From Mugil cephalus (lineage: Eukaryota > Chordata > Actinopteri > Mugiliformes > Mugilidae), in assembly GCF_022458985.1 (NCBI RefSeq), contig NC_061771.1, positions 30,802,322-30,866,321 of the forward strand: a stretch of DNA of 64,000 bases, given 5' to 3'. The stretch's first letter is position 1, and every line of letters starts with the position of its first letter. Under the pieces are notes generated by a model. It saw nothing but the letters and a program-made list of their open reading frames with translations, was not told the origin of the DNA and did no database searches. The translations under genes and the position numbers were made by a program. Of this stretch, positions 28,728 to 63,981 are shown in pieces.

Positions 28728-29341
28728 ATAAGGTCAGGTGGACTTGTAGAATTTTTTGAAGACATTTCGCCACTCTTCCGAGTAGCTTCTTCAGTTCTGA
28801 TAAACTAGTGGGAAATTGAGGTTTAAATATGAATAAACTCTGTGGGCAACACCCACCAAAAGTCTGGGTGGCCAGAAAGTGTAGTCACTAATTACCATAA
28901 TGGCTGGTTTTACCTGTCCTGAATGGGGGGAACTTTGTGCCTAGGCTGCTTACACTATGAATAGAGCTCTCACAAGGCTATTGTCAATGGGAGCCTGGAG
29001 GCTCAAAGTGTGAATGTTGTTGAAACTTCTTGGGGAGAGAAGTCAAAACTGAATTATAAATTGTTGGTAAATTAAATCTCAGGCCACCTCCTCTGTTTAG
29101 AGAAGGTTTTTCCACTTTGACATAGATGGCTTCCTTAACTCCTCTCTCAAACCATCTGTACTCTCTGGCCAGGACTTTGACGTTGGTATCTTCAAAGGAG
29201 TGTCCTTTGTCCTTCTCAGGTCGAGGTGGACTGCGTTGTTTCCTGATGAGCTGGCTCTCCTGTGTTGAGCCATGTGTTTGTGGATAGGTTGTTTTGTTTC
29301 CCCAATGAACAAGTCTCTACATTCCTCACTAGCTGAACAGT
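28711..29341 (-). mobile_element. Penelope-like retroelement fragment, GIY-YIG end
   Basis: Minus-strand translation gives LFIGETKQPIHKHMAQHRRA, then NAVHLDL and related blocks. These match the GIY-YIG endonuclease at the C-terminus of fish Penelope-like elements (usual form LYIGETKQPLHKRMAQHRR). The downstream part contains GAAGACATTTCGCCACTCTT, a 3'-region sequence common in such elements. It is a truncated copy sitting inside the 3' end of T3: TRIM sequence stops at 28710 and GTCCTGTCAATCAAA resumes at 29342. Confidence 0.7.
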
Positions 29342-30050
29342 GTCCTGTCAATCAAATTCTTACTGATTTATTGTTCTTGCACTCATTGCTAGTTTTTACG
29401 ATTGTTTAGAAACACCAGGCATAGAGGTGCTGTTCCTTTGTATTTTTGGTTTTGCGCATGTTAGAGTAGCTAGATAGTTTTTGTTTATGAACATTTACGT
29501 TTATTATGACCAACACTTTCACTTTAGTTTTAGAAAGAAAGCTCAGTTTTATTTTCAAGGAGTCCTCTTTTTGTTGTATTTCTTTATTTGATTTAACAGC
29601 ACCTGGAGGTCCATTTCTGTTATCCACATTGTCTTTCAAATAAATACGCATCTTACCACAATCTTTTCATCTGATTGTGCGTGTGTTACTTCCCTTTTCC
29701 CATAACGAGCTGGGGTGTGTAACAAGCGTTAATGTTCTTATTCACTCTCATTGCGTATGCTAAATGTTATTGCAACTGACGCTAATGAAAACCATCTAAT
29801 AAAAACTATAACTTCATCAGTAAGTAACTTGTTTCACACCGAGTGTTAATCTAAAAATTAACAGACTTGAAACATCTGTTCCGGCGTTGGTGTTGCTGGT
29901 GGGTCATTGTGCCGCCGCTGAGAAAAAATATTGTTATGTCCATCATGTTCTATGTGTAGCTACGTCCATCTGACAAATCTCAATTTGAACTCGCAGAATC
30001 ATCACAAGAAACAGCATCAGAGAGGAAGACACACTTCTTCTCGGCCGGGC
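29342..30050. other. Spacer, nothing recognised
   Basis: Begins with 15 bases of TRIM 3' sequence, then AT-rich DNA without a gene-like frame. The counterpart in copy B is 46817-47525. Confidence 0.4.
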
Positions 30051-31660
30051 AGGCTATGAACACAGATTACTTTCCTGCTGCTGCTGCCTCTCTGTTGGAC
30101 TCCGGTACTGCAGAAAGGCTACAGACCCTGGGACCATGGTGCATCGAGTGTGGTGCGACATATCTGGAGTCAAGGAGGGGAAGCCTGTCAAACCTCCCGC
30201 AGGTCCCAGCAGGAGGCAACACCAGTAAGCTAACTGAACAATGGTCTGAATACAGTCAAAACAAGAGGTGGAAAGCAGACGAGCCTAAGTGAGCTAAGCT
30301 CAAGGGTCCTGAAAAATATGCTACAGCTGGTGGAGACAAACCAGAGAAGTTATAAAGAGAAATCTCGGCAGAGAAAGACCTGCTTCAACAAAAGTTTCTA
30401 TGCAGTTTATATCTGAACACCTCAGGCAGCCAAAGAGTCGAAGCCTGACATGTTCCAATGGGGAAGTGGAGGATAGCATCTTCCTTTGGGGGAAAAGCAA
30501 TTGTCGCCAGAAAATGCAAGCATCCAGAAACACACATCAGTGATTAGCCAGATCATCAAGGAGGCCAAGAGGAGCAACAACACGCTTCCTGTGGCCTAGC
30601 TAGACCTCGCCAAAGCCTACCCACAAGTACCACATCAGGTAAAATTGGCAATTGGCAGAGACTTGAACAGGACATCATGGCAGAATGCACAATTTCAGTT
30701 ACTCTGTTTGTGGCTGCCATGACCTGTTACTCAAGGCAGGAGGGATGCAGTGCAGAGGGCCATTAGCAGATAACTGGATAAGACACCCAGACCGCAAAGC
30801 CTTCAAAATCCAGGAGCCTTTGCCTCCTGAAGGGAAAACAAACCCTGATAACACCTTTAGTATCCAGGGGTCAGAAATTCCTACTATCTAGGAGCAAGGA
30901 ATTCGCTGTCAATGAAAGTGTTATGATAGTACCCTGAAGGAAACCTTAAAATGACCACAACTCAACTGAATGCTTGGTTGAAGGAAATTGAGAACAGTTT
31001 GCTGCTGGGCACTATTATGTTTCCAGTAAGGACCATACCAAGACTCCAGTGGAGTCTGTTTGACTAACAGAAAGTCTACAAAGCTCAGTTTACCACTCTC
31101 GTCAGTTGTGGAAGAATTCAAGGCTGCCAAGGCAAGGGCAGTCTGTACGCTACTACTATCCAAGGAATTGATTGAATCATTGGCATGGTGTATCGGAAAC
31201 TATGGCACCAAGAGTTGGATAATGCTGATGCCAGAGGAAGAAGGGAGCTCGTGGGTCAAAAGGTCAGGGGTACAGCAGAAGAGGAAAATCGTATCAAAGG
31301 GGTGGAACTGCCCTTCCAGGCCTGTTGGATGCAGCAGGATGAGGTACTTGAGTGGCTGTTTTCTTAGAAGGGGCTCTGGGGTACTGCCCAGGGCAAGTTA
31401 AACTTTCTGCTATGTGCTGTAGCCAACCTCTTGCCACCACATCTTGACTGGATGTCCAAGGCAAAGTCCCTGTAGAGATTGCTAAATGGACCGAGCTGCA
31501 GAGAGTCAGGACCAACATACATCAGGCACAAACACCCAGATTCATGGCCTTTCAAACAGAGGGCAGAAAGGTTCCCAAGGCAAAGAAATTCAGGATCAGT
31601 GCATTACAAAAGACTGGGCCTCTATGCAGATGACTTAGAAGAGGTGTACAGTTAAAATAC
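30051..31660 (+). mobile_element. R2/NeSL-type LINE remnant
   Basis: Broken plus-strand pieces, in order: QIIKEAKRSNNTLPVA and LDLAKAYPQVPH (reverse-transcriptase A-box region), TTQLNAWLKEIENSLL, KLSLPLSSVVEEFKAAKAR, then NRIKGVELPFQACWMQ and GKLNFLLCAVANLLPPHLDW. This order matches the C-terminal half of fish LINEs related to R2/NeSL, which carry a restriction-like endonuclease. An N-terminal piece at 30056-30292 with CIEC is unassigned. No intact frame remains. Confidence 0.55.
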
Positions 31661-32099
31661 CTGTGACCCTGTGTATCTGCTGAGGATGCAGTAAGTGTTC
31701 CCGCATGCATACTGACTGCTCTTCCACAGTTCTATCCCAGGAGAGATCTTCAGTTGACATGTCTTAATTTGCTCTTGCAGCCTCTGCTTGTATCAAAGAA
31801 TGTTTGATGTTTATTTCATCAAGCAAATGTTTTTCCAGCCAGCCTCAGTTTATTGGTAATATCCCTGAAGAAGAATTTTGAAGTGTATCCTGAAATGAAC
31901 GGGGAGCCAGTGTAATTATGCAAGAATGGGAGTGATATGTCTCGCTTCTTTGACTTTGTTAATAACCAGGTGGAGATGGGAGGTGGTGGTCATACCTGAG
32001 TAGAGGGAGTTGCAGTAGTCCAGCCTGAATGAGGTGAATGCATGAAAAACTCGGTCGGAGGGTGATGGGAAGCGCCTGGTTTTTGAGATGTTCTGAGCT
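31661..32099. repeat. Dispersed repeat fragment
   Basis: About 31870-32090 has GAGTTGCAGTAGTCCAGCCT and flanking text of a kind often seen in fish dispersed retroelement tails. The rest is unassigned. Counterpart near 49150-49590. Confidence 0.4.
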
Positions 32100-32453
32100 G
32101 AAGGAAACTGCGGTGTGTGCTTCTACTGTATATCATGTTAATAGATGTGTGTCCCTCTCTCCATCTCGTTAAAGTTTGTTTTCAAGGTGTGCTGACTTGT
32201 GATTCCTACAGACTCTGTGTCAGACACTACGTCTGTGTCTATAGCTGAAAGAGAAACTAAGAGAGAGACTATTGTGGAATGTGTTTGTTTTTATATGCAT
32301 GTCTCAACTTGAAGTAGAAAACAAACAAAACTGCAGTCAGAGAGTTTGTCAAAGCGACGGCGACAGGGCTACAGTCCAGACAACTCTCTGTTTCTGTCTG
32401 AAGATAAATTAAAGAGTTCGTCTATTCTTTCTTAACATCTGACTCAAAGACAG
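32100..32453 (+). promoter_or_regulatory. T4a promoter region and non-coding 5' exon
   Basis: Counterpart of the T1 leader block, ending at a donor (ACAG|GTGAGTA, exon end 32453); the acceptor ends at 35793. The segment that holds the interferon element in T3 is missing: sequence runs from CTGCAGTCAGAGA almost directly into GTTTGTCA. The 5'-UTR intron is 3.3 kb, against 0.3 kb in T1, because of insertions. Confidence 0.5.
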
Positions 32454-33074
32454 GTGAGTAATCTGATAATATTCACTATATTTAAATAACTAGCATCAAA
32501 ATCCAGAGCTTTAGTCCAGACATTAGTGCTTTAGAATAAAATATAAAATACTAAAAAATTATCTGATTCAGTCCAGTTCCCACTAACACATCTGCCTCTA
32601 TTCATTCACTCTCTAGCTCAGTCTCTGCTCAGTCTCTGGTGAAGGAGGGACAAAGTCTGAATATTGGTCAGGGTTTCACATAATGTGAACACTATAGCGA
32701 CCTGCCAGGGTCTAATCTATTCAACCATAGTCTCAAAACAATTTAGAAATATTTTTGCACATTTCAAACAACAGTGTGCGTGTTTTTCTTGTGATTTCTT
32801 TTTTATCACACACTATGAATTTTGTTGGATAACTTTGTGTGCATGTTGTTTTTCCTATTACTCGTGAACATCCCTGAAATCACCAACTTCCGTCCACACG
32901 GACCATTCACCTGATCTGTTGAAAACGGCACAAGTTGTGAAGCTATTTGTGTTGTTCACTAACAAAAATTGATGTTACTACCGCCTCTGTTTAAAATCCA
33001 ATGTTTGTACTGATGTTTTTTAGACCATGGAGAGTAACATTATTAAGAGAGTTGGTCAAAACCCGGAGGAAATA

Positions 33075-34074
33075 GGGCGTATTCACACCAGGAAAGTCCA
33101 ATAGTTCACTTGCTTGGGTCTGGACCTTTTAAAAAAAATGCTTTTTTCGGTTTGTATTCACATTGCATTTTTTGACAAGTGGACCAACATTGTAAACAGA
33201 CCCATGTGTATCCCATAGCCACTAGGCCACTGGATATGATTATTGGCGGGATCTTTTACTTTAAGCTGACACTGCGTCGGAGTCCAGGTAAAGCCTATGT
33301 CACACATTTTCTTGGCGATTTGGCCGTAGACGTCAGTATTTTTGTGCATCTAGCAGCTGACATATGCTCTCCTCCAACCACATATCGAGGAGGCAGTGCG
33401 TCTCTTCTGTGCCCCACGCTGACCCACAGCTCATTGTTGGTATTAAATAGAAAAGAATGAAACGACGATCACGATCACAACGTTTTTGTGGACGAAACTG
33501 TAGCTTATTTTTCCTTTGGACAACTGCGGCTAATGGATTATACTGAGTTTGTTCAACTTCGTGGCATTGGTGGCTGTGAAGTTAAACAAATTTAATATCA
33601 TTTAAACATTAAACATTTAAGAATGAATGGGGAAAATTTAAGCTTTTTCGTTAGATATGTAATTATTCTAAATTTACATAATGTAAAAAGGACATTGCTT
33701 CTGTTAATTAAATGCGGGATGCCCTACACGTCTCAGGCTTTTCTGTGTTGTATTGGTGGTTCAAAGGTGGCTCAGTTTTTTCCGTAAATATTAATTACAT
33801 TAAAAGGTACTGTTGTCCTGACAAGATCCCTCTTGTGTGTATGGTGAATTGTTACAAACGGAATCCCGTTTAATCTGTAAAGACGCTGAGATGTCTCACG
33901 GACTCTGGTGCGAACCAAACAAGTGAACCGAGTCCCAGCTGCGGGGGTTGTCTCAGTTCACTTGTTTGGTCCGCACCAGAGTCCGCTGATTTGTACTCAC
34001 ACCTACCCAAAAGGTCCGCACCACAGAAAAGGTCTGTTTCAAGCAGACTAAACAAGCCTGGTGTGAATACGACC
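33075..34074. mobile_element. 1.0-kb PIF-Harbinger-like element with internal hairpin
   Basis: The two ends carry inverted repeats sharing CGTATTCACACCAGG (left tip GGGCG, right tip GGTCG). The flanks ATA and TTA are compatible with a 3-bp target duplication. A minus-strand frame at 33158-33349 gives VYGQIAKKMCDIGFTWTPTQ, like the Myb/SANT-type DNA-binding domain carried by Harbinger elements. At 33899-33985 there is a near-perfect inverted repeat. It is non-autonomous and lies inside the T4a 5'-UTR intron. Confidence 0.6.
33899..33985. repeat. Near-perfect hairpin
   Basis: The left arm from CGGACTCTGGTGCGAACCAA and the right arm ending TTGGTCCGCACCAGAGTCCG pair over more than 30 bases, with a GC-rich loop of about 20 bases. 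Confidence 0.85.
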
Positions 34075-35237
34075 TTAACTTTATAAGTGTTACCGGCACC
34101 AGACCTAGGGATAATCTAAGTAAAGGTTACACAGGCTAGGAAGCACAGTGTATGTAGCAATTTTGTGTTGCTAGCGTTTGTTGGCTGGAAAGAAGGTGAA
34201 ATGACTAACATTGGTCAGAAAGACACGATACGATATATAATGTCATTGCAGAGCATCGATCGGCGATGTTATTTATTAATTTATTTTTTAAATAGGGGCC
34301 GCATGTCCATATAGCCTTTTTCAACAATCCCACTCAGTGACCGGAGGTGTCATACCCGGATATTTACTCTCACCTCATCGAATCACCCACTAACGTATGA
34401 CATCTATCATTAATTCATAATTATCATGATGGTAATATCATATATATGACGTAAAATACAGCATGAAGCTTAGCCAACCTTTTATTAAAAAAAAAAAAAA
34501 AAGCTTTACAGTAATGTAACTCTGTGCTCTGTCGTTACCTACTGTCATTTCAGTTCAGCATCAACATTCACTACTTTGACTTTTTACCATGAATTTGGAG
34601 TTTTTAACATAACTAACAACTCTGACGACTGACATTAGGTAACGTTAGCATCATAGGTGTTTGTGGCACACGTACACATCAACTAACAGGGTCCCATTTT
34701 CGACACGTTTTATGACCTGAAACCACACATTTATTTGTTTTTTATCCCTCTCTTGAGAGAGCAGTAACTTAAGGATACTCTCTTCCATAATCCACTGCTG
34801 AGTGAGCGCCATCTGCTGATGCAAAAGCGTATTGCTTTTGTAAAAAGTGTACATAAACATGTAAGAATGGTTCAAACATTAACAAAAAAATAAGAGGGTG
34901 TCTGTTTAAATGAAAACTAAGCATAAGTTTACAAGCTACTAAATAAGCACCAGCTAGTATAGTTAGATTGAAAGTCAGTTGTTTGCTTATAAATTCAATT
35001 TATTCGCTGGTTCTTCATTTAATCTTACAAACAATTGTCCATAGAATGCCGCCTCTCAACGGTATTATGTTTAGTATTCTTGTCGATGAAATGATGAACT
35101 GCACAGGTTGCTGCTAATGCTGAATCCAATATACTTGTTATTACAGTAATTTTACAGCATTTCTACAACTAGAAGCAGTTTTGCAATGGATCGAACTGTA
35201 TTAAAAAATTCTAGAAATAATTCCAAGGAAAACCGAA

Positions 35238-35266
35238 GGGGGGGAGGGGGGGGGGGGGGGGGGGGG
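35238..35266. repeat. Poly-G run
   Basis: 29 bases of G broken by a single A (35245). Counterpart at 52729-52759. Such a run can form a G-quadruplex and is prone to sequencing error. Confidence 0.9.
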
Positions 35267-35423
35267 ATAATTTTGGTACAGGTAGATGTGGCCTTAATAA
35301 TTCATAATTTAAATGAAGTCTCACATAGTTCCTCTCTGTCTCCACCTGAGGTCAATAAAACAACAACCATCAGGAAAGTTTGATGAACTTTAGACTCAGG
35401 GTGAGCTGTAGATTGTTGTAAAA

Positions 35424-35619
35424 TGGGCTGTTATGAAATGTGTTGTGTTATTGTAAATAGATTGCACAGAACTGGGACTCTAGAGGGCACACAAGACAAC
35501 TGCAGATGGTCAACGAGGAAGTACTTTGGGATGCTTGCGGTCCATGAATAAACAGCAGCTTTATACTGTAACAGTATAATCGTGTCGGATGTGAATCTGT
35601 TATTTACGAGGATACCACA
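35424..35619 (+). mobile_element. Solo-LTR-like insertion (fossil)
   Basis: About 196 bp that interrupt sequence shared with the T2 intron (TTGTAAAA before, CAGACCTA or CAGACATT after). It starts with TG, ends with CA and contains an AATAAA followed by TATA-like and GT-rich sequence, as expected of an LTR. Family unknown; no internal retroviral or retrotransposon part is present. Confidence 0.4.
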
Positions 35620-35802
35620 CAGACCTACTAACCTCTTTTTATAAGCTGCTATGAATTGAACTCCAGGAGATAAAATATGTGAATGTATTTCAAAGTCATT
35701 ATGTCTGAAGTTTGATGCAAGATGAATAACTCATCAATAATCAATAAATCTCTACTTAAACTGTGTTTTTCTCTCTTTCTCTCTTGTTGTCAGTGTGTAG
35801 AC

Positions 35803-37446
35803 ATGTCTGCTGCCACATGTCTGAAATCTGAAGATCACTTTCTGTGCTCCATCTGTCTGGATGTGTTCACTGATCCAGTCACTACATCATGTGGACACAA
35901 CTTCTGCAAACACTGCATCACTCAACACTGGGATACCACTGATCTATGTAAGTGTCCCCTGTGTAAAGAGATGTTCTACAATAGACCTCAGCTGAAGATC
36001 AACACTTTCATCAATGAGATTGTTGCTGAGTTCAGACATGAAGCTCAACAGAAAGCCAGCAGCAGCAGCTCAGAACAACAAGCTGCCAAACCAGGAGAAG
36101 TTCCCTGTGACGTCTGCACTGGAACCAAACTGAAGGCCCTGAAGTCCTGCCTGGTGTGTCTGCTCTCCTACTGTGACTCTCACCTGGAGCCTCATCTGAC
36201 AATGTCACGTCTGAAAAGACATCAGCTGATCCACCCGTGGACAACCTGGAAGACAGGATGTGTAGGAAACACGATAAACCTCTGGAGCTGTTCTGTAAGA
36301 CCGACCAGACATGTGTCTGCCTGCTTGCCTGTTTTAGACCACAAGACACATGATGTTGTTCCTCTGAAAAAAGAATATGAAGGAAAGAAGGCAGAGCTGG
36401 GGAAGACAGAAGATCAAATTCAGCAGATGATCCAGAAGAGACGACTGAAGATTGAGGAGATGAAAGAGTCAGTGAAGATGAGTAAAGATGCTGCAGACAG
36501 AGAGAAAGCAGAAGGTGTTCAGGTCTTCACTGCTCTGAAGGAGTCTGTTGAGAGAGGCCTGGAGCAGCTCATAAAGGAGATCGAAGACAAACAGAAAACA
36601 ACAGAGAAACAGGCTGAAGGTTTCATCAAAGATATGGAACAGGAAGTCTCTGAGCTGATGAAGAGGAGCTCTGAGGTAAAGCAGCTCTCACACTCTGAAG
36701 ACCACCTCCACCTCCTCCAAAGCTTCTCCTCCCTGACAGCTGCTCCACCCACCAAGGATTGGACAGAGGTCAGCGTCAGTCCACCATCATATGAGGGGAC
36801 TGTGGTGAGAGCTGTGACTCAGCTGGAGGAGAAACTCAGTAAAGACATGAAAAAGCTTCTTTCTGAGGCTGAACTGAAGAGGGTCCAGCAGTATGCAGTG
36901 GATGTGACTCTAGATCCTGTTACAGCACATCCTAGACTCATCCTGTCTGATGATGGAAAACAAGTGACTCATCGTGACGTGAAGAAGGAACTTCCAGACA
37001 ACCCAGATAGATTTTCTACATGTGTAAATGTTTTAGGAAAGAAGAGTTTCTCTTCAGGTAGATTTTACTTTCAGGTTCAGGTTAAAGGAAAGATTGACTG
37101 GGATCTAGGAGTGGCTAGAAAGTCAATCAATAGGAAGGGAAACATCACTCTGAGTCCTAAGAATGGTTTCTGGACTATATGGTTGAGAAATGGAAATGAA
37201 TACAAAGCTAATGCTAGTCCTCCAGTGCGTCTGTCTCTTGGTTCTCGTCCTGAAAAGGTGGGGGTGTTTGTGGATTATGAGGAGGGTCTGGTCTCCTTTC
37301 ATGATGTAGATACTGCAGCTCTTATCTACTCCTTTACTGGCTGCTCCTTCAATGACAAACTTTATCCATACATCAGTCCCTGTAATAACAGTGGTGGTAA
37401 AAACTCTGCACCTCTCATCATCTGTCCTGTCAATCAAACTGTCTGA
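35803..37446 (+). CDS. T4a: TRIM RING-B-box-PRY-SPRY protein with an out-of-frame B-box 2
   Basis: Open frame of 547 residues from the conserved start (MSAATCL...), which lies nine bases after the splice acceptor; an in-frame ATG further upstream (35722) is inside the intron. The RING, B-box 1, coiled coil and PRY-SPRY are normal. Between about 36236 and 36323 the frame differs from T4b and all other copies: one base is missing from a C run, and two more bases from nearby T and C runs restore the frame. As a result residues of about 145-173 are unrelated to the family (HPWTTWKTGCVGNTINLW) and the first B-box 2 zinc ligands are lost. All three changes are in homopolymer runs, so sequencing error is likely and the true gene is probably intact. 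One extra serine near residue 350 (KKLLSEAELKR) marks both T4 copies. Confidence 0.8.
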   Translation: MSAATCLKSEDHFLCSICLDVFTDPVTTSCGHNFCKHCITQHWDTTDLCKCPLCKEMFYNRPQLKINTFINEIVAEFRHEAQQKASSSSSEQQAAKPGEVPCDVCTGTKLKALKSCLVCLLSYCDSHLEPHLTMSRLKRHQLIHPWTTWKTGCVGNTINLWSCSVRPTRHVSACLPVLDHKTHDVVPLKKEYEGKKAELGKTEDQIQQMIQKRRLKIEEMKESVKMSKDAADREKAEGVQVFTALKESVERGLEQLIKEIEDKQKTTEKQAEGFIKDMEQEVSELMKRSSEVKQLSHSEDHLHLLQSFSSLTAAPPTKDWTEVSVSPPSYEGTVVRAVTQLEEKLSKDMKKLLSEAELKRVQQYAVDVTLDPVTAHPRLILSDDGKQVTHRDVKKELPDNPDRFSTCVNVLGKKSFSSGRFYFQVQVKGKIDWDLGVARKSINRKGNITLSPKNGFWTIWLRNGNEYKANASPPVRLSLGSRPEKVGVFVDYEEGLVSFHDVDTAALIYSFTGCSFNDKLYPYISPCNNSGGKNSAPLIICPVNQTV

Positions 37447-38739
37447 TCCATTTAATGATGAAGCTTTGAGGTCAATGAATGAACTTATTGATCTTCACTC
37501 TTTATTCACACTCTGTACATATATCCTTAATACTACAATACTGGTACAGCTGAGAACGCAAGATGACAGTACAGTTACGGGGAAGTGAGGCGCCTGAAAC
37601 GTTGTATGACCATCGTAGTCGACTTTCACCAAATCCTTGGCAGAGGGGCGAAGATCCAGCAGTGTTTGGCGGTCGTACACAAGCAATGAGCTGACAGTAG
37701 AGATAACAATTGACACAAAGAGCACAAACATAAACAACATTTCCAGCAAGAGACGACGGGCCACACACACACTGGCGCCATCTTCAATCCACCAGAAGTC
37801 ATAGGTTCAATGTCTTCATGTTAAGAAGTAACAGAATAATGTCCAGGATAGTTGAATCAAATTTGTCACTCACTACAGGTTTACCAAAAAAGGTGAGGAA
37901 AGCCTGTGTAGATTTTCACTGTCCTGGCATCATCGTGTTAACATGCTTCAATAAGAACTACTACCCCAGTCACTAGTGAGGAAATATTTAATTATCCAGA
38001 TAATATCCAGATTATAATTGTGATTGGGATGTTTAGTCGACTCCGTTCAGGTCTCAAATTCCAGAATCATCCCCAAACAGCTCTGTATTTACGATGATGT
38101 TGATCTTATTACTTTCATACAGCTCTGAGCAAAGTCTGATTGAAAAGAACAGTTTCAAGAAAAAAGTTTGTAATGAAAAGGGACTATGATGTGATTATGT
38201 TATGGTGTTCATAACTGTTGTGCTACTTTTTGGGAATCATCATCATTGTTAGTAATTTTCCTCTGTTCATCCCGATGTCTTGTCCTCCAATGTTTTCTGG
38301 TGCTCATGGTCAGTGTTGTGAGCTTCTCTGATTCATACTTTAATGTGATTCAAAACCTTTTATAAAATATCCATAAAAGACTAGCCTTTGTCATTTTGTT
38401 GTCATTCCATAGCCACAAAGCTAGTAACCATTTCCAAAAAAACAGTTTACTGAAATACAGGTCACATATTTGTTAAAACAACAGAATCACTGAAACATTC
38501 ACCACATATCAACCAACGGAAACATCTCCTCTCAGATGTGTTGCAGCTGATTCAGAGAAGTAGATGGAGTACCACACCTTAACTCCCTTCTTCCCAATTC
38601 AGTTAGATTCAGGGACACAGGGGTAGGGTGGAGGTTGACCAAGATCTGCAAGACGACAAGGTAAACCATCTGAACCTCATTTACCGAGATCAGTGGTGAG
38701 GAAGGGTTTTTCAACACTCAAACCTCTCTTTAAAATAAG
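37447..38739. other. T4a 3' flank
   Basis: Starts with the shared TRIM 3' sequence. 37560-37790 is an inserted LINE-like piece: on the minus strand it encodes VYDRQTLLDLRPSAKDLVKV, resembling the start of a fish retroelement ORF (tentative). 37840-38540 is the shared distal flank also seen at 19880 and 55340. Confidence 0.5.
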
Positions 38740-39385
38740 AGCCTCTTCTAAAACCACTGGCTGTCACCTAGTGGCCCCCTCATTCTACTTCCATCAACCG
38801 CAGCAACCTTCAGTACCTTTGGTGCTGAGATGAAGGACGGGAGATGTTTAAGTGATATCAAGAGACATGGACCCATGGTCTTGGTGATATTAGTGATGCT
38901 TTCTTATTGGAGCTCAAAGACAAACGTTGCAGAGGAAGGAGTGATTTTACTATTGAATGAATTTCATAGATGAACCACTGGGAGACACAGAAAGGTGGCA
39001 GCTTGATGACCTCTGCAGCTTCAACTTTTTATTGTCATTTTGTTGTTGACATTTGTTCATTTTACTGATTAAGAATTCTTCACTGTTGACAAGTTGTTAC
39101 TAGAACCAGTTTGTGATGCCAGAAGTCAGGACATCTTGGGCCCTGACTTTACTTGCTGCACACCTACTGAAACTGGTCCTAACTTCCTGCAGGGGTGGGC
39201 CAACAGGGAGATGACTCTAGATTGTTTCTTTGGACTAGCCCGGCTTAGGCTCATGGAGGAAAGCTCAGTTTCTAGACAGAGTTTTCCCTCTTGTGGTTGA
39301 GGTGTAAGGTCCCTATTTAAGGTCTTTGGATTGTTTGCCCCCTTCCCTGAGACCCAATAACAGGATCTCAGTATCACATGGACAA
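38740..39385. repeat. TRIM 3'-flank module, full copy
   Basis: The most complete copy of the module also found at 11964, 18076, 21536 and 25038 (partial) and at 56240. Non-coding. Confidence 0.6.
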
Positions 39386-40086
39386 AACCCCTCCACCACA
39401 TTAAGGTAGTGATTCATCTGGAGGCAGAGATGCTGCTTTATCATATCAAAGGAGTCCAGGTGGGTTGGTATGGAATCTGAAGAGGACTCCAGGATTGTAA
39501 AGAGGTGAGTTACCAGGGTGGTTCATGAATTCACTGGAGAGAAAACAGATCTCAACCATCCTGAGAGACCACCTGACCCTGACATAAAATTGCCAGGGAT
39601 GAAGAGTTTTATAAACAATAAACTTCAACTCTCTGTGGCAGTACAGAGCCTATTACCGTTGTAACCAACTGGTCATCAGATTGATCTATCCATTTTGACT
39701 GAAACATGGCTACAGCTCGATGAAGGAGTTTAAAGGAGGAAATGAAATAAATTAGACTTACTTGAATCCTATCCGTCAAACAGATTCCAGTTTTGGTTCC
39801 TCTGGGTTCTGTGCTGGGATCATTAGATCAGAAAATTCTTTATTGTCCCAATTTGGGCAATTTACTTTGCAACAGCAGTCACCAACCAAATTCAGATCAT
39901 AAAACAGTACTGTACAAAACAACACAGAATAAATAATAAAAGTCATCAGGTGAGTTATCATGACCATAGAGTATATGCAGCCTACATTGCAAGACCATGC
40001 CTAAAAGTTATTTAGAAACTCTACAGCTGTGGGAACAAATGATCTGAGATATCTGCTTGGTATATTGATATCTGCACAGGCGAGTA
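39386..40086. other. Repeat-derived spacer
   Basis: 39830-40050 resembles fish dispersed repeats (TTCTTTATTGTCCCAATTTG) and the 19190 region. No gene. Confidence 0.4.
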
Positions 40087-41495: not shown

Positions 41496-41529
<34 letters not shown>

Positions 41530-52728: not shown

Positions 52729-52759
52729 GGGGGGGGGAGGGGGGGGGGGGGGGGGGGGG
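52729..52759. repeat. Poly-G run, second copy
   Basis: 31 bases of G with one A; two bases longer than in copy A. Confidence 0.9.
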
Positions 52760-52917
52760 CATCAGTTTGGTACAGGTAGATGTGGCCTTAATAATTCATA
52801 ATTTAAATGAAGTCTCACATAGTTCCTCTCTGTCTCCACCTGAGGTCAATAAAACAACAACCATCAGGAAAGTTTGATGAACTTTAGACTCAGGGTGAGC
52901 TGTAGATTGTTGTAAAA

Positions 52918-53114
52918 TGGGCTGTTATGAAATGTGTTGTGTTATTGTAAATAGATTGCCACAGAACTGGGACTCTAGAGGGCACACAAGACAACTGCAG
53001 ATGGTCAACGAGGAAGTACTTTGGGATGCTTGCGGTCCATGAATAAACAGCAGCTTTATACTGTAACAGTATAATCGTGTCGGATGTGAATCTGTTATTT
53101 ACGAGGATACCACA
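52918..53114 (+). mobile_element. Solo-LTR-like insertion, second copy (fossil)
   Basis: Copy of 35424-35619, so the insertion predates the duplication. Confidence 0.4.
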
Positions 53115-53297
53115 CAGACCTACTAACCTCTTTTTATAAGCTGCTATGAATTGAACTCCAGGAGATAAAATATGTGAATGTATTTCAAAGTCATTATGTC
53201 TGAAGTTTGATGCAAGATGAATAACTCATCAATAATCAATAAATCTCTACTTAAACTGTGTTTTTCTCTCTTTCTCTCTTGTTGTCAGTGTGTAGAC

Positions 53298-54943
53298 ATG
53301 TCTGCTGCCACATGTCTGAAATCTGAAGATCACTTTCTGTGCTCCATCTGTCTGGATGTGTTCACTGATCCAGTCACTACATCATGTGGACACAACTTCT
53401 GCAAACACTGCATCACTCAACACTGGGATACCACTGATCTATGTAAGTGTCCCCTGTGTAAAGAGATGTTCTACAATAGACCTCAGCTGAAGATCAACAC
53501 TTTCATCAATGAGATTGTTGCTGAGTTCAGACATGAAGCTCAACAGAAAGCCAGCAGCAGCAGCTCAGAACAACAAGCTGCCAAACCAGGAGAAGTTCCC
53601 TGTGACGTCTGCACTGGAACCAAACTGAAGGCCCTGAAGTCCTGCCTGGTGTGTCTGCTCTCCTACTGTGACTCTCACCTGGAGCCTCATCTGACAATGT
53701 CACGTCTGAAAAGACATCAGCTGATCCACCCCGTGGACAACCTGGAAGACAGGATGTGTAGGAAACACGATAAACCTCTGGAGCTGTTCTGTAAGACCGA
53801 CCAGACATGTGTCTGCCTGCTTTGCCCTGTTTTAGACCACAAGACACATGATGTTGTTCCTCTGAAAAAAGAATATGAAGGAAAGAAGGCAGAGCTGGGG
53901 AAGACAGAAGATCAAATTCAGCAGATGATCCAGAAGAGACGACTGAAGATTGAGGAGATGAAAGAGTCAGTGAAGATGAGTAAAGATGCTGCAGACAGAG
54001 AGAAAGCAGAAGGTGTTCAGGTCTTCACTGCTCTGAAGGAGTCTGTTGAGAGAGGCCTGGAGCAGCTCATAAAGGAGATCGAAGACAAACAGAAAACAAC
54101 AGAGAAACAGGCTGAAGGTTTCATCAAAGATATGGAACAGGAAGTCTCTGAGCTGATGAAGAGGAGCTCTGAGGTAAAGCAGCTCTCACACTCTGAAGAC
54201 CACCTCCACCTCCTCCAAAGCTTCTCCTCCCGACAGCTGCTCCACCCACCAAGGATTGGACAGAGGTCAGCGTCAGTCCACCATCATATGAGGGGACTGT
54301 GGTGAGAGCTGTGACTCAGCTGGAGGAGAAACTCAGTAAAGACATGAAAAAGCTTCTTTCTGAGGCTGAACTGAAGAGGGTCCAGCAGTATGCAGTGGAT
54401 GTGACTCTAGATCCTGTTACAGCACATCCTAGACTCATCCTGTCTGATGATGGAAAACAAGTGACTCATCGTGACGTGAAGAAGGAACTTCCAGACAACC
54501 CAGATAGATTTTCTACATGTGTAAATGTTTTAGGAAAGAAGAGTTTCTCTTCAGGTAGATTTTACTTTCAGGTTCAGGTTAAAGGAAAGATTGACTGGGA
54601 TCTAGGAGTGGCTAGAAAGTCAATCAATAGGAAGGGAAACATCACTCTGAGTCCTAAGAATGGTTTCTGGACTATATGGTTGAGAAATGGAAATGAATAC
54701 AAAGCTAATGCTAGTCCTCCAGTGCGTCTGTCTCTTGGTTCTCGTCCTGAAAAGGTGGGGGTGTTTGTGGATTATGAGGAGGGTCTGGTCTCCTTTCATG
54801 ATGTAGATACTGCAGCTCTTATCTACTCCTTTACTGGCTGCTCCTTCAATGACAAACTTTATCCATACATCAGTCCCTGTAATAACAGTGGTGGTAAAAA
54901 CTCTGCACCTCTCATCATCTGTCCTGTCAATCAAACTGTCTGA
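53298..54943 (+). pseudogene. T4b: TRIM gene with one frameshift
   Basis: Same gene as T4a. Here B-box 2 is normal (CRKHDKPLELFCKTDQTCVC), so RING, both B-boxes and the coiled coil read through. At about 54231 one base is missing compared with T4a (CCTCCCGACAG against CCTCCCTGACAG), which ends the frame at 54305 after 335 residues, before the PRY-SPRY. The PRY-SPRY continues in another frame from 54299 to the stop at 54943 and is identical in protein sequence to T4a. As read, it encodes a RING-B-box-coiled-coil protein without a target-binding domain. Since T4a lacks this lesion and T4b lacks the T4a lesions, one or both may be sequencing errors and T4 may be functional. Confidence 0.75.
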
Positions 54944-56239
54944 TCCATTTAATGATGAAGCTTTGAGGTCAATGAATGAACTTATTGATCTTCACTCTTT
55001 ATTCACACTCTGTACATATATGCTTTAATACTACAATACTGGTACAGCTGAGAACGCAAGATGACAGTACAGTTACGGGGAAGTGAGGCGCCTGAAACGT
55101 TGTATGACCATCGTAGTCGACTTTCACCAAATCCTTGGCAGAGGGGCGAAGATCCAGCAGTGTTTGGCGGTCGTACACAAGCAATGAGCTGACAGTAGAG
55201 ATAACAATTGACACAAAGAGCACAAACATAAACAACATTTCCAGCAAGAGACGACGGGCCACACACACACTGGCGCCATCTTCAATCCACCAGAAGTCAT
55301 AGGTTCAATGTCTTCATGTTAAGAAGTAACAGAATAATGTCCAGGATAGTTGAATCAAATTTGTCACTCACTACAGGTTTACCAAAAAAGGTGAGGAAAG
55401 CCTGTGTAGATTTTCACTGTCCTGGCATCATCGTGTTAACATGCTTCAATAAGAACTACTACCCCAGTCACTAGTGAGGAAATATTTAATTATCCAGATA
55501 ATATCCAGATTATAATTGTGATTGGGATGTTTAGTCGACTCCGTTCAGGTCTCAAATTCCAGAATCATCCCCAAACAGCTCTGTATTTACGATGATGTTG
55601 ATCTTATTACTTTCATACAGCTCTGAGGAAAGTCTGATTGAAAAGAACAGTTTCAAGAAAAAAGTTTGTAATGAAAAGGGACAATGATGTGATTATGTTA
55701 TGTTGTTCATAACTGTTGTGCTACTTTTTGGGAATCATCATCATTGTTAGTAATTTTCCTCTGTTCATCCCGATGTCTTGTCCTCCAATGTTTTCTGGTG
55801 CTCATGGTCAGTGTTGTGAGCTTCTCTGATTCATACTTTAATGTGATTCAAAACCTTTTAAAAATATCCATAAAAGACTAGCCTTTGTCATTTTGTTGTC
55901 ATTCCATAGCCACAAAGCTAGTAACCATTTCCAAAAAAACAGTTTACTGAAATACAGGTCACATATTTGTTAAAACAACAGAATCACTGAAACATTCACC
56001 ACATATCAACCAACGGAAACATCTCCTCTCAGATGTGTTGCAGCTGATTCAGAGAAGTAGATGGAGTACCACACCTTAACTCCCTTCTTCCCAATTCAGT
56101 TAGATTCAGGGACACAGGGGTAGGGTGGAGGTTGACCAAGATCTGCAAGACGACAAGGTAAACCATCTGAACCTCATTTACCGAGATCAGTGGTGAGGAA
56201 GGGTTTTTCAACACTCAAACCTCTCTTTAAAATAAGAGC
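54944..56239. other. T4b 3' flank
   Basis: Copy of 37447-38739, including the LINE-like piece (about 55060-55290) and the shared distal flank. Confidence 0.5.
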
Positions 56240-56882
56240 CTCTTCTAAAACCACTGGCTGTCACCTAGTGGCCCCCTCATTCTACTTCCATCAACCGCAG
56301 CAACCTTCAGTACCTTTGGTGCTGAGATGAAGGACGGGAGATGTTTAAGTGATATCAAGAGACATGGACCCATGGTCTTGGTGATATTAGTGATGCTTTC
56401 TTATTGGAGCTCAAAGACAAACGTTGCAGAGGAAGGAGTGATTTTACTATTGAATGAATTTCATAGATGAACCACTGGGAGACACAGAAAGGTGGCAGCT
56501 TGATGACCTCTGCAGCTTCAACTTTTTATTGTCATTTTGTTGTTGACATTTGTTCATTTTACTGATTAAGAATTCTTCACTGTTGACAAGTTGTTACTAG
56601 AACCAGTTTGTGATGCCAGAAGTCAGGACATCTTGGGCCCTGACTTTACTTGCTGCACACCTACTGAAACTGGTCCTAACTTCCTGCAGGGGTGGGCCAA
56701 CAGGGAGATGACTCTAGATTGTTTCTTTGGACTAGCCCGGCTTAGGCTCATGGAGGAAAGCTCAGTTTCTAGACAGAGTTTTCCCTCTTGTGGTTGAGGT
56801 GTAAGGTCCCTATTTAAGGTCTTTGGATTGTTTGCCCCCTTCCCTGAGACCCAATAACAGGATCTCAGTATCACATGGACAA
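56240..56882. repeat. TRIM 3'-flank module, copy B
   Basis: Copy of 38740-39385. Non-coding. Confidence 0.6.
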
Positions 56883-58461
56883 AACCCCTCCACCACATTA
56901 AGGTAGTGATTCATCTGGAGGCAGAGATGCTGCTTTATCATATCAAAGGAGTCCAGGTGGGTTGGTATGGAATCTGAAGAGGACTCCAGGATTGTAAAGA
57001 GGTGAGTTACCAGGGTGGTTCATGAATTCACTGGAGAGAAAACAGATCTCAACCATCCTGAGAGACCACCTGACCCTGACATAAAATTGCCAGGGATGAA
57101 GAGTTTTTATAAACAATAAACTTCAACTCTCTGTGGCAGTACAGAGCCTATTACCGTTGTAACCAACTGGTCATCAGATTGATCTATCCATTTTGACTGA
57201 AACATGGCTACAGCTCGATGAAGGAGTTTAAAGGAGGAAATGAAATAAATTAGACTTACTTGAATCCTATCCGTCAAACAGATTCCAGTTTTGGTTCCTC
57301 TGGGTTCTGTGCTGGGATCATTAGATCAGAAAATTCTTTATTGTCCCAATTTGGGCAATTTACTTTGCAACAGCAGTCACCAACCAAATTCAGATCATAA
57401 AACAGTACTGTACAAAACAACACAGAATAAATAATAAAAGTCATCAGGTGAGTTATCATGACCATAGAGTATATGCAGCCTACATTGCAAGACCATGCCT
57501 AAAAGTTATTTAGAAACTCTACAGCTGTGGGAACAAATGATCTGAGATATCTGCTTGGTATATTGATATCTGCACAGGCGAGTACCTGTGTCTCCACCCA
57601 GCATTTTATCATTGCAAAGGTGTGAGATAGAACTTCTGACTGGTTACAAGTACCTTGGCATTTTAATTGATGACTAACTTTCTTTTAAAACTCATGTAGA
57701 CATCATGATAAAAAGGTCAGGTCTTCTTTTTCTTTTACTGCCAGGAAAAAAGTTGTTTGCTGCCATCTTGCTCCCTATACTTGATTACGGCGACCAGCCT
57801 GCAATCCCGTTGCAGGTTCGTCAGAGGTTATCTAAAGGTGAATAGTTGAATAAAGGCAACTGGATGTTTCGCTACTCGGACACAGACATAGTCTGAAAGG
57901 AGATACAAGGGGGAGACACAACACAGTATAAGCACACAGCGTTGAGTAGTAAGATAGAAGAAACTAGAAAATTCTGTCTGGGGAATTTTGAAAGGGCAAC
58001 TGCCGGGGGTACCATCTCTGTCAATCAAACTGTTTTGAGTTGTATGATTTCGAGTTTGTGAGCTTCATTTGAAATGTTGATGTAAATTTTGAGAAAAACA
58101 AAAAGATGAGTTTTGGTGTTTAAATATAAATACGCATATATGACTGAGATTCTAAGTTAATGTTTATGACTTATTTTTAAAATACATTTTGAAATTAATT
58201 GATTCATGAAAGTAAATGCCAAAATATGTCTTTTTTCTTTTATTTCCCACCATAGATTTAATTCCTCTCTAGGCACTGTGGGAGTTGCCACTCCCGAGTT
58301 CATCCTTTAATTTCCCTTTCAATTTTATTTTGGCCAGTTTTATTTACTTCTTCACCAGTCTATGGGCCTCTTCTTGTTGGTGAATGTCTCCTTGGTGGAA
58401 AGCATTTCTGATTTAGAATATTGACGAAATTTCCCAGTTTGGGACAAATATTTAGTTTAGT
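56883..58461. other. Repeat-derived spacer, copy B
   Basis: Copy of 39386-40968, including the LINE piece at about 57588-57815 (YKYLGILIDD). No gene. Confidence 0.45.
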
Positions 58462-58653
58462 TTAGTTTTTTAGTTTAGTGACCAAAGGTTTATTATTTGG
58501 GTATATTGTGATTGTCATTTGTTCACAAAAGAAAAAGTATTCAGATACAGTGTTCATCAGCTCATCTAAATCAGTAAAAGTGTCTTTGAAATCATCGCAG
58601 TTAGTGCTGTTAAAACGTCCATTCAGCTGGTGAGCTGAGCCCTCTGTCCACAC
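58462..58653 (-). mobile_element. LINE fragment, minus strand, second copy
   Basis: Copy of 40969-41160 with two residue changes. Confidence 0.6.
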
Positions 58654-58864
58654 AGCAGCCTATTTTCTTTCAACTTTTCCTCTCTTGAGGGTCAGTTGAT
58701 AGACTGGTGCTAAAAAAGATGAAATTAGTATCAGTAAACCCCAAGTGACACAATTTTATAGGATATAAGTGGCCCCTTTATAGTGCCGTAGCATAAGTCC
58801 AGTACCTTACCATGTCTTGTTGGACACATTACATACTGGTAAAGGCGACAGAGGGATTTTTTAA

Positions 58865-58995
58865 GAATTTATTTCAAATTTCATTTCTATGCTGATGACA
58901 CAATCTTATATTGCTATGACTCTACTCTTGTTGAGGCCTTTGGGAAATTGCAGATTGCTTTTTCAAGCTGGCGGAACGTCAGCTTATTGATAATA

Positions 58996-59049
<54 letters not shown>

Positions 59050-59905
59050 AGCTAATAGACTAGTTTTAAATCCTGCCAGAACCAAACTGATGATTGTTTT
59101 CCAATGGCAGGAGAGTACCTGTCTCCTCCCAGCATTTTATCATTACAAGGGTGTGAGATAGAAAACCTAGAAAAAAAAGAAAAACACAATTTAAACTTGA
59201 GTTCTTTTTCCATCACATGTCTTGTTTTTCTTTTGCTGCCAGGAAAAAGGAAAAAGTTGGTTGTTGCTATCTTCCTCCTTACACTTGATTAAGATACCTT
59301 GATACCTTTCATGTATGAATGCTTCTTCAAACTGTCTGTAATCTCTGCATCCAGTGAATCATGGTGCCTTAAGGATTATCACAATTTATGTCATCATCAC
59401 TGCACCTTATATGAATGAGCTGAGTGGCCATCTCTGGCAACACCGCCTTACACAATGGCATATGTTTTTTTTAATATCTTACTTGTATTCCCAGACTATT
59501 TATGCAATTACATCTCTAAAACACAAAGCAAGTATTCTTTGCATTCCAACGATTTGTATGTTTTAAACGTGTCCAAAACCCACTCTGAATTTGGTAAACA
59601 CTGTTTTAAGTACTCTGCACCTGCTGCTTGGAACTCATTGCAGAAAACTTTAAAATTAAAGAAAATCATTACACTTGGATTTTGAAAAACCATGTGAGAG
59701 ACTTTGGAGCAGCTATGTATCACACTTGTTCTTGTTTTAGTGTAAATCCCTAGTCTTACTCGTGTTTCATTTTTATCTTCCATGTATTTTATTTATGTTA
59801 TTGAGTGAGTTTCTGTCACAACTTTCCTAGGTTGCGGTCTTTGCCAGGCTTCCCTTAGAAAATATGTCATTTTATCTTGACAGGATTGACCTTGTTAAAT
59901 AAAGG
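58865..59905 (+). mobile_element. LINE reverse-transcriptase fragment, second copy
   Basis: Copy of 41370-42380, with the YADDTILY box near 58887 and the APAAWNSLQKTLKL block near 59630. Confidence 0.65.
58996..59050. repeat. TTGA microsatellite, copy B
   Basis: 55 bases, 20 more than in copy A. Confidence 0.9.
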
Positions 59906-59949
59906 ATAATAATAAATAATACTGCAAGTATTAAAACCACCAATTATAA

Positions 59950-60415
59950 AATTTGGGGAATCGCGGGAAAAGCTTTAGAAACAGAGAACAAGAACAACAT
60001 TACGGATGATGCATCCTTAATTTTGGCTTTAGGATGAATATAATCCACTGTAATAACATGCTTCCCTTAGGCAATATTATTAGGAAACATGGCATAAACA
60101 TTAATTGCTATGCAGATGACACCCAGCTGTATTTATTCAAGAAACCAGATGAAACTAATCAGCTGGTTAAAGTCTTAACAACATAAAGGATGAGCTATAA
60201 CTTCCTAGTCTTAAAATCAGACTAAACAGAAATCATTGTATTTGGCCCTAAACATCTCAGAGATTCATTATCTAATCACTTTCTCTGGATGGCTTTACCT
60301 TGGGTCCAGTTCTACTGTGAGAAAACTTGGTGTTCTCACATAAAGCAAGTGACAAGGACTGCCTTCTTTCACCATATCCTCAACATTTCACATTCTGTCT
60401 CACCTCTACTTTCCT
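59950..60415 (+). mobile_element. LINE reverse-transcriptase fragment upstream of T5b
   Basis: Copy of 42430-42890, with the [18 protein letters not shown] block. Confidence 0.7.
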
Positions 60416-60509
60416 CTCTCGCGCATTGTGCTCCTATGCTTTAATTTATCCTACCCTACTACTCATAGCATGTTGTGTGTCTATCTCCCTTCCCCTACGT
60501 TTATTTTAT

Positions 60510-60819
60510 TTTGTTTTCAATGTATAACAACTTGTAATTCCTACAGTCTCTGTGACAAAGACTACGTCTGTGTCTATTGTTCAAACAGAAAAACTATGGT
60601 GCAATGTATTTGTTTTCATATTCATGTCTCAACTTGAAGCAGGAAATAAACTGTTAGAGAGAAACCGGAAAGACCAGATTCAATGTCAGTTTCCACAAAT
60701 AAACCACATGTCTGTCAGAGCGACGGCAGAGCTGCAGTCCAGACAAATCTCTGTGTTTCTGTCTGAAGAAAATTCATCTCAGTTCATCTATTCTTTCTCA
60801 ACATTGGACTAAAATACTG
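60510..60819 (+). promoter_or_regulatory. T5b promoter region and non-coding 5' exon
   Basis: Copy of 42990-43298; exon end 60819 (CTG|GTGAGTAC), acceptor ending at 61614. No intact interferon element. Confidence 0.5.
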
Positions 60820-61614
60820 GTGAGTACAGCTGATAATATTTACTGTGTTTCAACAGCTAGTATCAAATACTTGAGCTTGAGTTTAATCATTAGTGCATTG
60901 GAACAAAATATAAAATCCTAGAAAAAAACCTTCTGAATCAGAATCAACACAGTTCCCACTAACAGTACTCCCTTGATGTGATCCAGAAATGGGTCACAAT
61001 CCTGTTTTCAATGGGATGGAGGCCTTTGTCTTGGCAAAAAAAACAAACAAAACATGTTAAGACAGTGTTATTCATCGGCTCTCACTTCCATACTCCTTAA
61101 CAGTAGGTGGCTAGTGACACTGGTCATTTCACACCACAGAAATAGATCAGTAAAGTTTATTTATATTTGCTACTTTAGCGTGAATTCAGGTACAACGCAG
61201 ATTAAATGAGATATAGATTTTCTTATGTTGTGCATTGAGGTGTTCACTTGTCAAAGTACATTATTTTTCAATATTTACTTCCTGATAAGGTAATCAAAGG
61301 AAAAGTTAATTTTGTAAACTTGAATCATTTTGAATGGGTGTAAAAGGTGAACAAAGACTGATCAACAAATGCTGCTCTTCTCGGTCTCTACCTGAGATCG
61401 GTAAAATGTCAAGCGACTTTAGTGAATTTTACATCGAGGAGCTGCAGATGGTGGTAAAACAGATCTACTGACTGGCAATAAACTGACACCAGGAAAAAAA
61501 AAATGAAGACGTCTGTGTACAGTGTAAACTCTGTATGTATGAACTCTCATGAATGTTCAAATGTTAATCAGTCATCAAAAAATCTCAAAATTGCTCTTTC
61601 TCTCTTGTTGTCAG
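60820..61614 (+). other. T5b 5'-UTR intron
   Basis: 0.8 kb, shorter than in T5a because of the missing 199 bp. No gene. Confidence 0.6.
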
Positions 61615-61623
61615 TGTGTAGAC

Positions 61624-63267
61624 ATGTCTGCTGCCAAATGTCGGAGATCTGAAAATCAGTTTCTGTGCTCCATCTGTCTGGATGTGTTCACTGATCCAGT
61701 CACTACACCATGTGGACACAACTTCTGCAAACACTGCATCACTCAACATTGGGATACTACTGATGTATGTAAGTGTCCCCTGTGTAAAGAGATTTTCAAC
61801 ACTAGACCTCAGCTGAAGATCAACACTTTCATCCGTGAGATTGTTGCTGAGTTCAGACATGAAGCTCAACAGAAAACCAGCAGCAGCATCTCAGAGCAAC
61901 AAGCTACCAAACCAGGAGAAGTTCCCTGTGACGTCTGCACTGGAACCAAACTGAAGGCCCTGAAGTCCTGCTTGGTGTGTCTGCTCTCCTACTGTGACTC
62001 TCACCTGGAGCCTCATCTGACAGTGTCAGGTCTAAAGGGACATCAGCTGATCCACCCTGTGGACAACCTGGAAGACAGGAGGTGTAGGAAGCATGATAAA
62101 CCTCTGGAGCTGTTCTGTAAGACCAACCAGACATGCGTCTGCATGTTCTGCTCTGTTTTAGACCACAAGACACATGATGTTGTTCCTCTGAAAGAAGAAT
62201 ATGAAGGAAAGAAGGCAGAGCTGGGGAAGACAGAGGATAAAATTCAGCAGATGATCCAGAAGAGACGACTGAAGATTGAGGAGATGAAAGAGTCAGTGAA
62301 GATGAGTAAAGATGCTGCAGACAGAGAGAAAGCAGAAGGTGTTCAGGTCTTCACTGCTCTGAAGGAGTCTGTTGAGAGAGGCCTGGACCAGCTCATAAAG
62401 GAGATTGAAGACAAACAGAAAACAACAGAGAAACAGGCTGAAGGTTTCATCAGAGATCTGGAACAGGAAGTCTCTGAGCTGATGAAGAGGAGCTCTGAGG
62501 TAAAGCAGCTCTCACGCTCTGAAGACCACCTCCACCTCCTCCAAAGCTTCTCCGCCCTGAAAGATACTCCACCCACCAAGGACTGGACAGAGGTCAGCGT
62601 CAGTCCACCATCATATGAGGGGACTGTGGTGAGAGCTGTGACTCAGCTGGAGGAGACACTCAGTAAAGACAAGAAGAAGCTGCTTGAAGCTGAGTTGAAG
62701 AGGGTCCAGCAGTATGCAGTGGATGTGACTCTAGATCCTGATACAGCAAATCCTCACCTCATTCTGTCTGATGATGGAAAACAAGTGACTCATCGTGATG
62801 TGAGGAAGAAGCGTCCAGACAACCCAGAGAGATTTTCTACATGTATTTGTGTTTTAGGAAAGACGAGTTTCTCTTCAGGTAGATTTTACTTTCAGGTTCA
62901 GGTTAAAGGAAAGACTGACTGGGATCTAGGAGTGGCCAGAGGGTCAATCAACAGGAAGGGAGACATCAAACTGAGTCCTCAGAATGGTTACTGGACTGTA
63001 TGGTTGAGAAATGGAAATGAGTACAAAGCTCTTTCTGGTCCTCCAGTCAGTCTCTCTCTTGGTTCTCGTCCTGAGAAGGTGGGGGTGTTTGTGGATTATG
63101 AGGAGGGTCTGGTCTCCTTTCATGATATAGATACTGCAGCTCTTATCTACTCCTTTACTGGCTGCTCCTTCACTGACAAACTTTACCCATTCTTCAGTCC
63201 TTTTCTTTCTAACTATGGTAAAAACTCTGCACCTCTGCTTATCTGTCCTGTCACTCAAACTGTCTGA
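61624..63267 (+). CDS. T5b: TRIM E3 ubiquitin ligase, RING-B-box-coiled coil-PRY-SPRY
   Basis: Intact, 547 residues from MSAAKCRRSENQF. RING, B-box 1, B-box 2, coiled coil and PRY-SPRY are complete, with all zinc ligands. B-box 2 reads KTNQT where the other copies have KTDQT; that aspartate sits at a zinc-ligand position of the CHCDCCHH pattern, so zinc binding there could be weakened. Two short tracts look borrowed: VSVSPP near 62600 as in T4, and VARGSINR near 62935 with T2-like silent sites. It is the last TRIM in the window; the array may continue beyond it. The start lies nine bases after the acceptor, as in the other copies. Confidence 0.9.
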   Translation: MSAAKCRRSENQFLCSICLDVFTDPVTTPCGHNFCKHCITQHWDTTDVCKCPLCKEIFNTRPQLKINTFIREIVAEFRHEAQQKTSSSISEQQATKPGEVPCDVCTGTKLKALKSCLVCLLSYCDSHLEPHLTVSGLKGHQLIHPVDNLEDRRCRKHDKPLELFCKTNQTCVCMFCSVLDHKTHDVVPLKEEYEGKKAELGKTEDKIQQMIQKRRLKIEEMKESVKMSKDAADREKAEGVQVFTALKESVERGLDQLIKEIEDKQKTTEKQAEGFIRDLEQEVSELMKRSSEVKQLSRSEDHLHLLQSFSALKDTPPTKDWTEVSVSPPSYEGTVVRAVTQLEETLSKDKKKLLEAELKRVQQYAVDVTLDPDTANPHLILSDDGKQVTHRDVRKKRPDNPERFSTCICVLGKTSFSSGRFYFQVQVKGKTDWDLGVARGSINRKGDIKLSPQNGYWTVWLRNGNEYKALSGPPVSLSLGSRPEKVGVFVDYEEGLVSFHDIDTAALIYSFTGCSFTDKLYPFFSPFLSNYGKNSAPLLICPVTQTV

Positions 63268-63981
63268 TCCATTTAATGATGAAACTTTGAGATCAATGAA
63301 TGAAGTTATTGATCTTCACTCTTTATTCACAAATATGCTTTAATTCTTCAATGCTGGTGTCAATACAAGGCTGTACAGTTACATCCATATACAGTATATT
63401 TTGACAATGACACGATTTGTTATAAAGAGGTATTCACATCCAAATAGGACAAATGGATGAGGATTTACGACCATTTTGACCTGGAAACGTGTTACTGTCA
63501 CTGTGATGCTGTGGAAACAGGATCAAAATTATTTGTGTGAGCATCATGTTTCTTTAGTAATCCAGAATATCTTCCAGGAGAGCTGAAATAAGTTTGTTAC
63601 TCACTAGAGGTTTATCAGAGGAAGTGAGGAAAGTCTGTGTAGATGTTCACTGTTCTGGCCTCATCATATTAACATGCTTCTATAAGAGCCATTAGCTCAG
63701 TGAGTAATGAGGAAGTGTATAATTATCCAGATGAAATGTCGACTCCCTTTTGGTCTCTAAATCCAGAACCATCCGCAAGCAACTCCATATTTACTCTGAT
63801 GTCTGAGGTTTCATTACTTTCAAACAGCTCTAGACGATTTAGAGTAGTTACATACTGACTGTTTGGTTGACAAGAGCAGTTCTCACCTTCAGTTAAAAGT
63901 TTTAGTGAAAAGAGACGACGATTTGATTATGTGTTATAACTGTCGTGCTACTTATTGGGCATCACGTGGTTGGTAATTTAA
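63268..63981. other. T5b 3' flank
   Basis: Shared TRIM 3' sequence. From about 63630 it matches the distal flank seen at 19990 and 37900 (CATGCTTCTATAAGAGCCAT, TATAATTATCCAGATG). No gene. Confidence 0.5.

Follow-up and report, generated by a model that had tools for sequence, protein, structure and literature searches.

Two near-identical TRIM gene pairs flanking a 500-N gap in the Mugil cephalus assembly: a probable false duplication

A 64,000-nucleotide stretch of the Mugil cephalus genome (assembly GCF_022458985.1, contig NC_061771.1, here C2, positions 30,802,322 to 30,866,321 of the forward strand; hereafter the window) carries a pair of TRIM genes twice, in two near-identical segments lying on either side of a gap, and we conclude that this is probably a false duplication in which the overlapping ends of two contigs were left unmerged. 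Copy A (29048-46021, plus strand) forms the right end of contig 14473-46021 and bears genes T4 and T5, and copy B (46522-63334, plus strand) forms the start of the next contig, which is gap-free across the 117 kb read, and bears T4' and T5'. Positions are those of the window and the same scale is continued beyond both of its ends. A preliminary description had offered a real event and a haplotype artefact as alternative readings. The artefact fits better, on the grounds of a dovetail between the contig ends, divergence at the level of alleles, an excess of indels and the lack of a recombinant gene, but the case falls short of proof given the duplicates of about 98% identity nearby. The probabilities that we attach to four explanations are judgements and not computed values.

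The collinearity of 29048-46021 with 46522-63334, originally read from the letters, was confirmed base by base with self-BLAST and a global alignment. By self-BLAST, 29048-43839 matches 46522-61351 at 98.59% identity over 14,866 columns and 44037-46021 matches 61351-63334 at 98.24%. The differences are mainly small, as had been claimed, and amount in the global alignment to 147 substitutions (81 transitions and 66 transversions) and 44 indels. The largest indel is a 198-bp segment present in copy A only (43839-44036), for which no second copy was found within the 64-kb window, and the second largest is a 20-bp difference in an ATTG repeat that has 13.5 units in copy B (58996-59049) and is five units shorter in copy A, an allele-like difference in length. 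The repetition itself is not due to chance. A probe from 30000-31000, compared with the genome (635 Mb in 24 contigs), gave six matches among the best-scored candidates, comprising the two copies, at 100 and 97%, and four short matches at 71-82%. No relatives were confirmed in viral contigs or in bacterial and archaeal genome contigs (16 and 60 pattern matches, respectively).

Dead transposons had also been described as part of the collinear sequence. As far as ORF-bearing elements are concerned this was not substantiated, with none of eight non-TRIM ORFs, two of which lie outside the repeated stretch and two of which are copies of one ORF, giving a Pfam match at E <= 0.1. The contig of copy B begins within an ORF on the minus strand (46524-46820), which gave no Pfam match and which, together with its counterpart near 29048, presumably resembles the GIY-YIG part of a Penelope-like element.

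The junction between the copies falls in a gap of exactly 500 Ns (46022-46521), as first reported, and the overlap continues in register up to both gap edges, with 46021 corresponding to 63334 and 46522 to 29048. The 100 bases to the right of the gap match exactly at 29048, and occurrences of the 20 bases to its left end at 46021 and at 63334. The geometry is therefore that of a dovetail overlap between two contig ends. In a survey of 264 kb, consisting of the window and 100 kb on each side with overlaps sought on both strands, all four gaps were found to be exactly 500 N long, and an edge-to-edge overlap in the assembled orientation occurs at one of the four, which is the reported gap and thus itself ascertained, and at none of the other three. 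One of these, at 13973-14472, served as a control within the window, and its flanks showed no edge-to-edge overlap on either strand. At the gap at -49062, the last 1809 bases of the left contig align in reverse orientation, at 98.2%, with the distal end of the contig that follows, such that flipping the right-hand contig produces a second dovetail of 1.8 kb, edge to edge. The overlapping stretch is a repeat with more copies nearby, and the support that this second dovetail lends to a false duplication is weak. Nor can geometry alone decide the matter, because a gap placed across a genuine junction would give the same dovetail.

Unmerged overlaps at contig boundaries, which become tandem duplicates with a gap between them after scaffolding, are described in a section of Rhie et al. 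2021 (PMC8081667), and the gap-separated picture of false duplication also figures in Ko et al. 2022 (PMC9516828), an overlap of 17 kb being compatible with what is described; for one published 3D-DNA assembly, 500 Ns between contigs are mentioned (PMC10320752). The heterotype false duplications of Rhie et al. and Ko et al. share with the present pair the near-identical tandem copies with a scaffold gap between them, the overlap reaching both contig ends, the divergent flanks around a near-identical block and the signs of raised error. Here, the pair lies on one scaffold with a gap between its members and the similarity extends to both contig ends. Heterotype duplications are also recognised by half read depth on each copy, discordant read pairs and single-copy heterozygous k-mers; copies A and B were compared in the assembled sequence.

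Under the favoured explanation, the same ~17 kb of a single locus would be covered both by contig 14473-46021 and by the one that begins at 46522. The copies would be alleles and would probably represent both haplotypes of a diploid, heterozygous at either end of the segment and almost homozygous over the central 10 kb. The two contigs would then have been set side by side by a scaffolder, presumably Hi-C-based or similar, with its fixed 500-N spacer, such that one T4-T5 pair reads as two. Read depth over each copy would be expected to be halved.

The window carries several tandemly arranged TRIM genes, all on the plus strand. T1 (15400-17121; 573 amino acids stop to stop) and T5 and T5' (44230-45954 and 61543-63267; 574 amino acids each, stop to stop) encode RING, B-box, coiled coil, PRY and SPRY in this order in a single open frame (Pfam) and are thereby class IV TRIM genes. 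T2 (22725-24467) and T3 (26990-28727), both scanned in part against Pfam, are broken paralogues; the frame of T2 is interrupted and T3, the most divergent, loses its homology to the other TRIM copies at 28714. Compared with T4', T4 (35716-37446) has indels at 36233 and 36326 that enclose a short out-of-frame stretch, and no B-box was matched in T4 with Pfam; we infer that the missing B-box falls in this stretch. In T4' (53211-54943), an indel at 54231 with respect to T4 breaks the frame. NCBIfam provided no useful name for the TRIM genes, and the best 60 of 94 PDB matches, which mostly cover the PRY-SPRY part, include pyrin, TRIM21, TRIM25, butyrophilin and other TRIM chains. A Sprouty domain was found with Pfam at 4761-5528, in the region earlier named spred2. 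Teleosts are known to have class IV TRIM genes in large multigene sets, some of them arranged in clusters (PMC3137616 and PMC2657112).

T4 and T4' differ at one of 1673 aligned sites and T5 and T5' at 26 of 1674, while the remaining paralogue pairs are 6.6-13.9% different. The suggestion that a real event would have doubled the two genes very recently does not hold for one event under a uniform clock, given this disparity between the pairs. The differences between T5 and T5' comprise 15 synonymous and 11 non-synonymous changes (dS 0.042, dN 0.009). The frames of T4 and T4' are interrupted at different places in sequences that are otherwise nearly identical, for which consensus error is more likely than two independent losses, and independent consensus errors in two contigs would give such a pattern.

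Along the overlap as a whole the density of substitutions is very uneven, at about 28 per kb in 29048-30425, 1.6 per kb in 30425-40480, a near-identical block with 16 substitutions in ~10 kb, and about 17 per kb in 40480-46021. The longest run without a substitution measures 3597 bp, and in 20,000 simulations of a uniform clock the largest such run was 1694 bp, with 3597 bp reached in none of them, and the model of one duplication evolving with such a clock is therefore rejected. For a neutral coalescent of two haplotypes, a run of 3597 bp appeared in 0.8-3.0% of the accepted simulations. The high-low-high course of divergence is like that of a homozygous block between heterozygous ones. It was nevertheless dropped as an argument for alleles because gap-free duplicates nearby, used as controls, are equally uneven.

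The first of these controls is a gap-free triplication, R1-R2-R3, with a period of 7.6 kb and 98.1% identity, which shares a contig with copy B (72864-93771; C2:30875185-30896092) and has one TRIM gene in each unit. R2 and R3 show zero substitutions across the first 2950 bases of R2, and R2 and R1 differ at just four positions past base 2757. R2 thus follows R3 in its upstream part and R1 thereafter, changing over somewhere from about base 2757 to base 2951. Such a pattern is left by one unequal crossover or by an assembly-graph loop that was walked twice. The second control, U1/U2, is a gap-free tandem pair within one contig (-74517 to -50900; C2:30727804-30751421), with units of ~10 kb, a 13.4-kb period and 98.2% identity. 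A 27-kb contig next to it carries matching units in inverted orientation, at 98.3-98.6%, is bounded at either end by one and the same 1.7-kb repeat, and is the contig that, once flipped, gives the 1.8-kb dovetail with its left neighbour; this arrangement may reflect wrong orientation of the contig, another haplotype or an inverted repeat that is real. Together, the U units and this contig span C2:30727804-30780995 (-74517 to -21326). The ratio of variance to mean for substitutions per 500 bp is 7.2-18.6 in the R and U controls, the upper value being that of R2/R3, which is inflated by a part of R2 that has no partner, as against 6.2 for copies A and B. Since gap-free duplicates of ~98% identity occur within 100 kb on either side and are equally patchy, neither an identity of 98-99% nor a mosaic of divergence is diagnostic at this locus.

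A distinction between copies A and B and the controls does emerge from the indels. In 30520-40000 the ratio of indels to substitutions is 18:16, compared with 26:131 in the rest of the overlap, and indels that are as common as substitutions in the middle block point to consensus error. When the comparison was restricted to substitution-free tracts of at least 500 bp, copies A and B showed 12 indels in 9355 bp, as against one in 7768 bp for R1/R2 and R2/R3, two in 2533 bp for U1/U2, and one in 2093 bp and one in 2267 bp for U1 and U2, respectively, compared with contig B. The four kinds of control pooled give five indels in 14,661 bp. The excess has p = 0.009 against the R units, 0.017 against the R units plus U1/U2 and 0.011 against all controls, and these counts suggest, indirectly, a raised consensus error in copies A and B.

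The main competitor is a real and recent tandem duplication of the T4-T5 block, of 17 kb or more, with its junction unassembled and the array expanding by unequal exchange, which we hold to be unlikely but still deserving of serious attention. The broader proposition, that the doubling is real and recent and one of several tandem duplications of ~98% in a TRIM-bearing region under repeated unequal exchange, is a shade less doubtful. Both draw on the gap-free duplicates on the two sides, of which those on the right carry TRIM genes, and on R2, which corresponds to R3 upstream and to R1 downstream, the composition expected from an unequal crossover. The near-identical middle would be explained by gene conversion or by exchange between differing haplotypes. 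Tandem genes of the RING-B-box-coiled coil-PRY-SPRY kind found here also make up the class IV TRIM clusters of teleosts (fintrim, btr and trim35/hltr; PMC2657112 and PMC3137616), and the R1-R3 array, with its recombinant middle copy, resembles the expansion of such clusters. Copies A and B are unlike it, in that no recombinant gene lies at their boundary and the boundary falls in a gap, where the junction of a real duplication would need to be hidden.

T3 and T5 provide a visible homologous route, as direct repeats ~17.2 kb apart that flank the segment. Exchange between T3 and T5 would yield a T5 gene with a T3-like 3' end. When the alignment was divided into bins of 200 columns, T5 matched T5' at 97.5-100% and T3 at 80-91% in all nine bins, and NAHR between T3 and T5 is excluded, with T5 remaining T5-like to its end and no recombinant T5/T3 gene present. 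Past the end of the gene, no substantial homology to 28600-30000 was seen in the flank downstream of T5, which was followed to 64000. An exchange hidden in the gap could have been mediated by direct repeats lying further apart, namely T1, T2 or T3 paired with the next TRIM copy (at ~76.9 kb, 88-91%). The indel excess in identical tracts likewise speaks against a real duplication. A false duplication is preferred because the dovetail, the excess of indels and the lack of a recombinant gene outweigh the duplication-prone neighbourhood.

Two further explanations carry much less weight. A haplotype-specific duplication, with one T4-T5 pair on one chromosome, two on the other and a scaffold that mixes them, would accord with the duplication of neighbouring units and with the statement in PMC2657112 that zebrafish fintrim genes, another multigene set of class IV TRIM genes, are highly polymorphic between alleles, but it lacks positive evidence of its own, meets the same objections as a real duplication and is improbable. 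That a single haplotype was assembled twice, all differences being consensus errors, would suit the indel-rich central block and is very improbable, since the 131 substitutions outside it and the synonymous excess in T5 look like real variation.

As a genome-wide probe for false duplicates we used a kinesin profile, for which 150 of 157 matches were considered (122 of 248 first-look candidates having been scored) and grouped by 20-kb clustering into 55 loci; a duplicate was defined as the same part of the profile occurring twice within 200 kb, such that close duplicates were not merged by the clustering. Among the matches listed, four pairs at three places recurred in this way. At two places they are genes on opposite strands that differ in exon range and in score, and at the third they lie 121 bases apart in one gene region, leaving none of the 55 loci, among the 150 of 157 matches, with a same-strand duplicate neighbour. 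False duplication therefore does not appear to be rampant in the assembly, and we have counted this result against a false duplication at the TRIM locus, together with the zero of three other gaps, the 0.8-3.0% coalescent frequency and the gap-free neighbours.

The locus is a useful test case, combining one probable false duplicate with gap-free duplicates of the same identity within 100 kb, and identity alone cannot separate false from real duplicates because both kinds share it here. T4 and T5 should be counted once, and the locus flagged, until read depth or a gap-spanning read decides. Double counting would inflate the TRIM copy number and create the appearance of a very recent expansion of immune genes that may not exist; if, on the other hand, the doubling of T4-T5 is true, copy number may differ between individuals.
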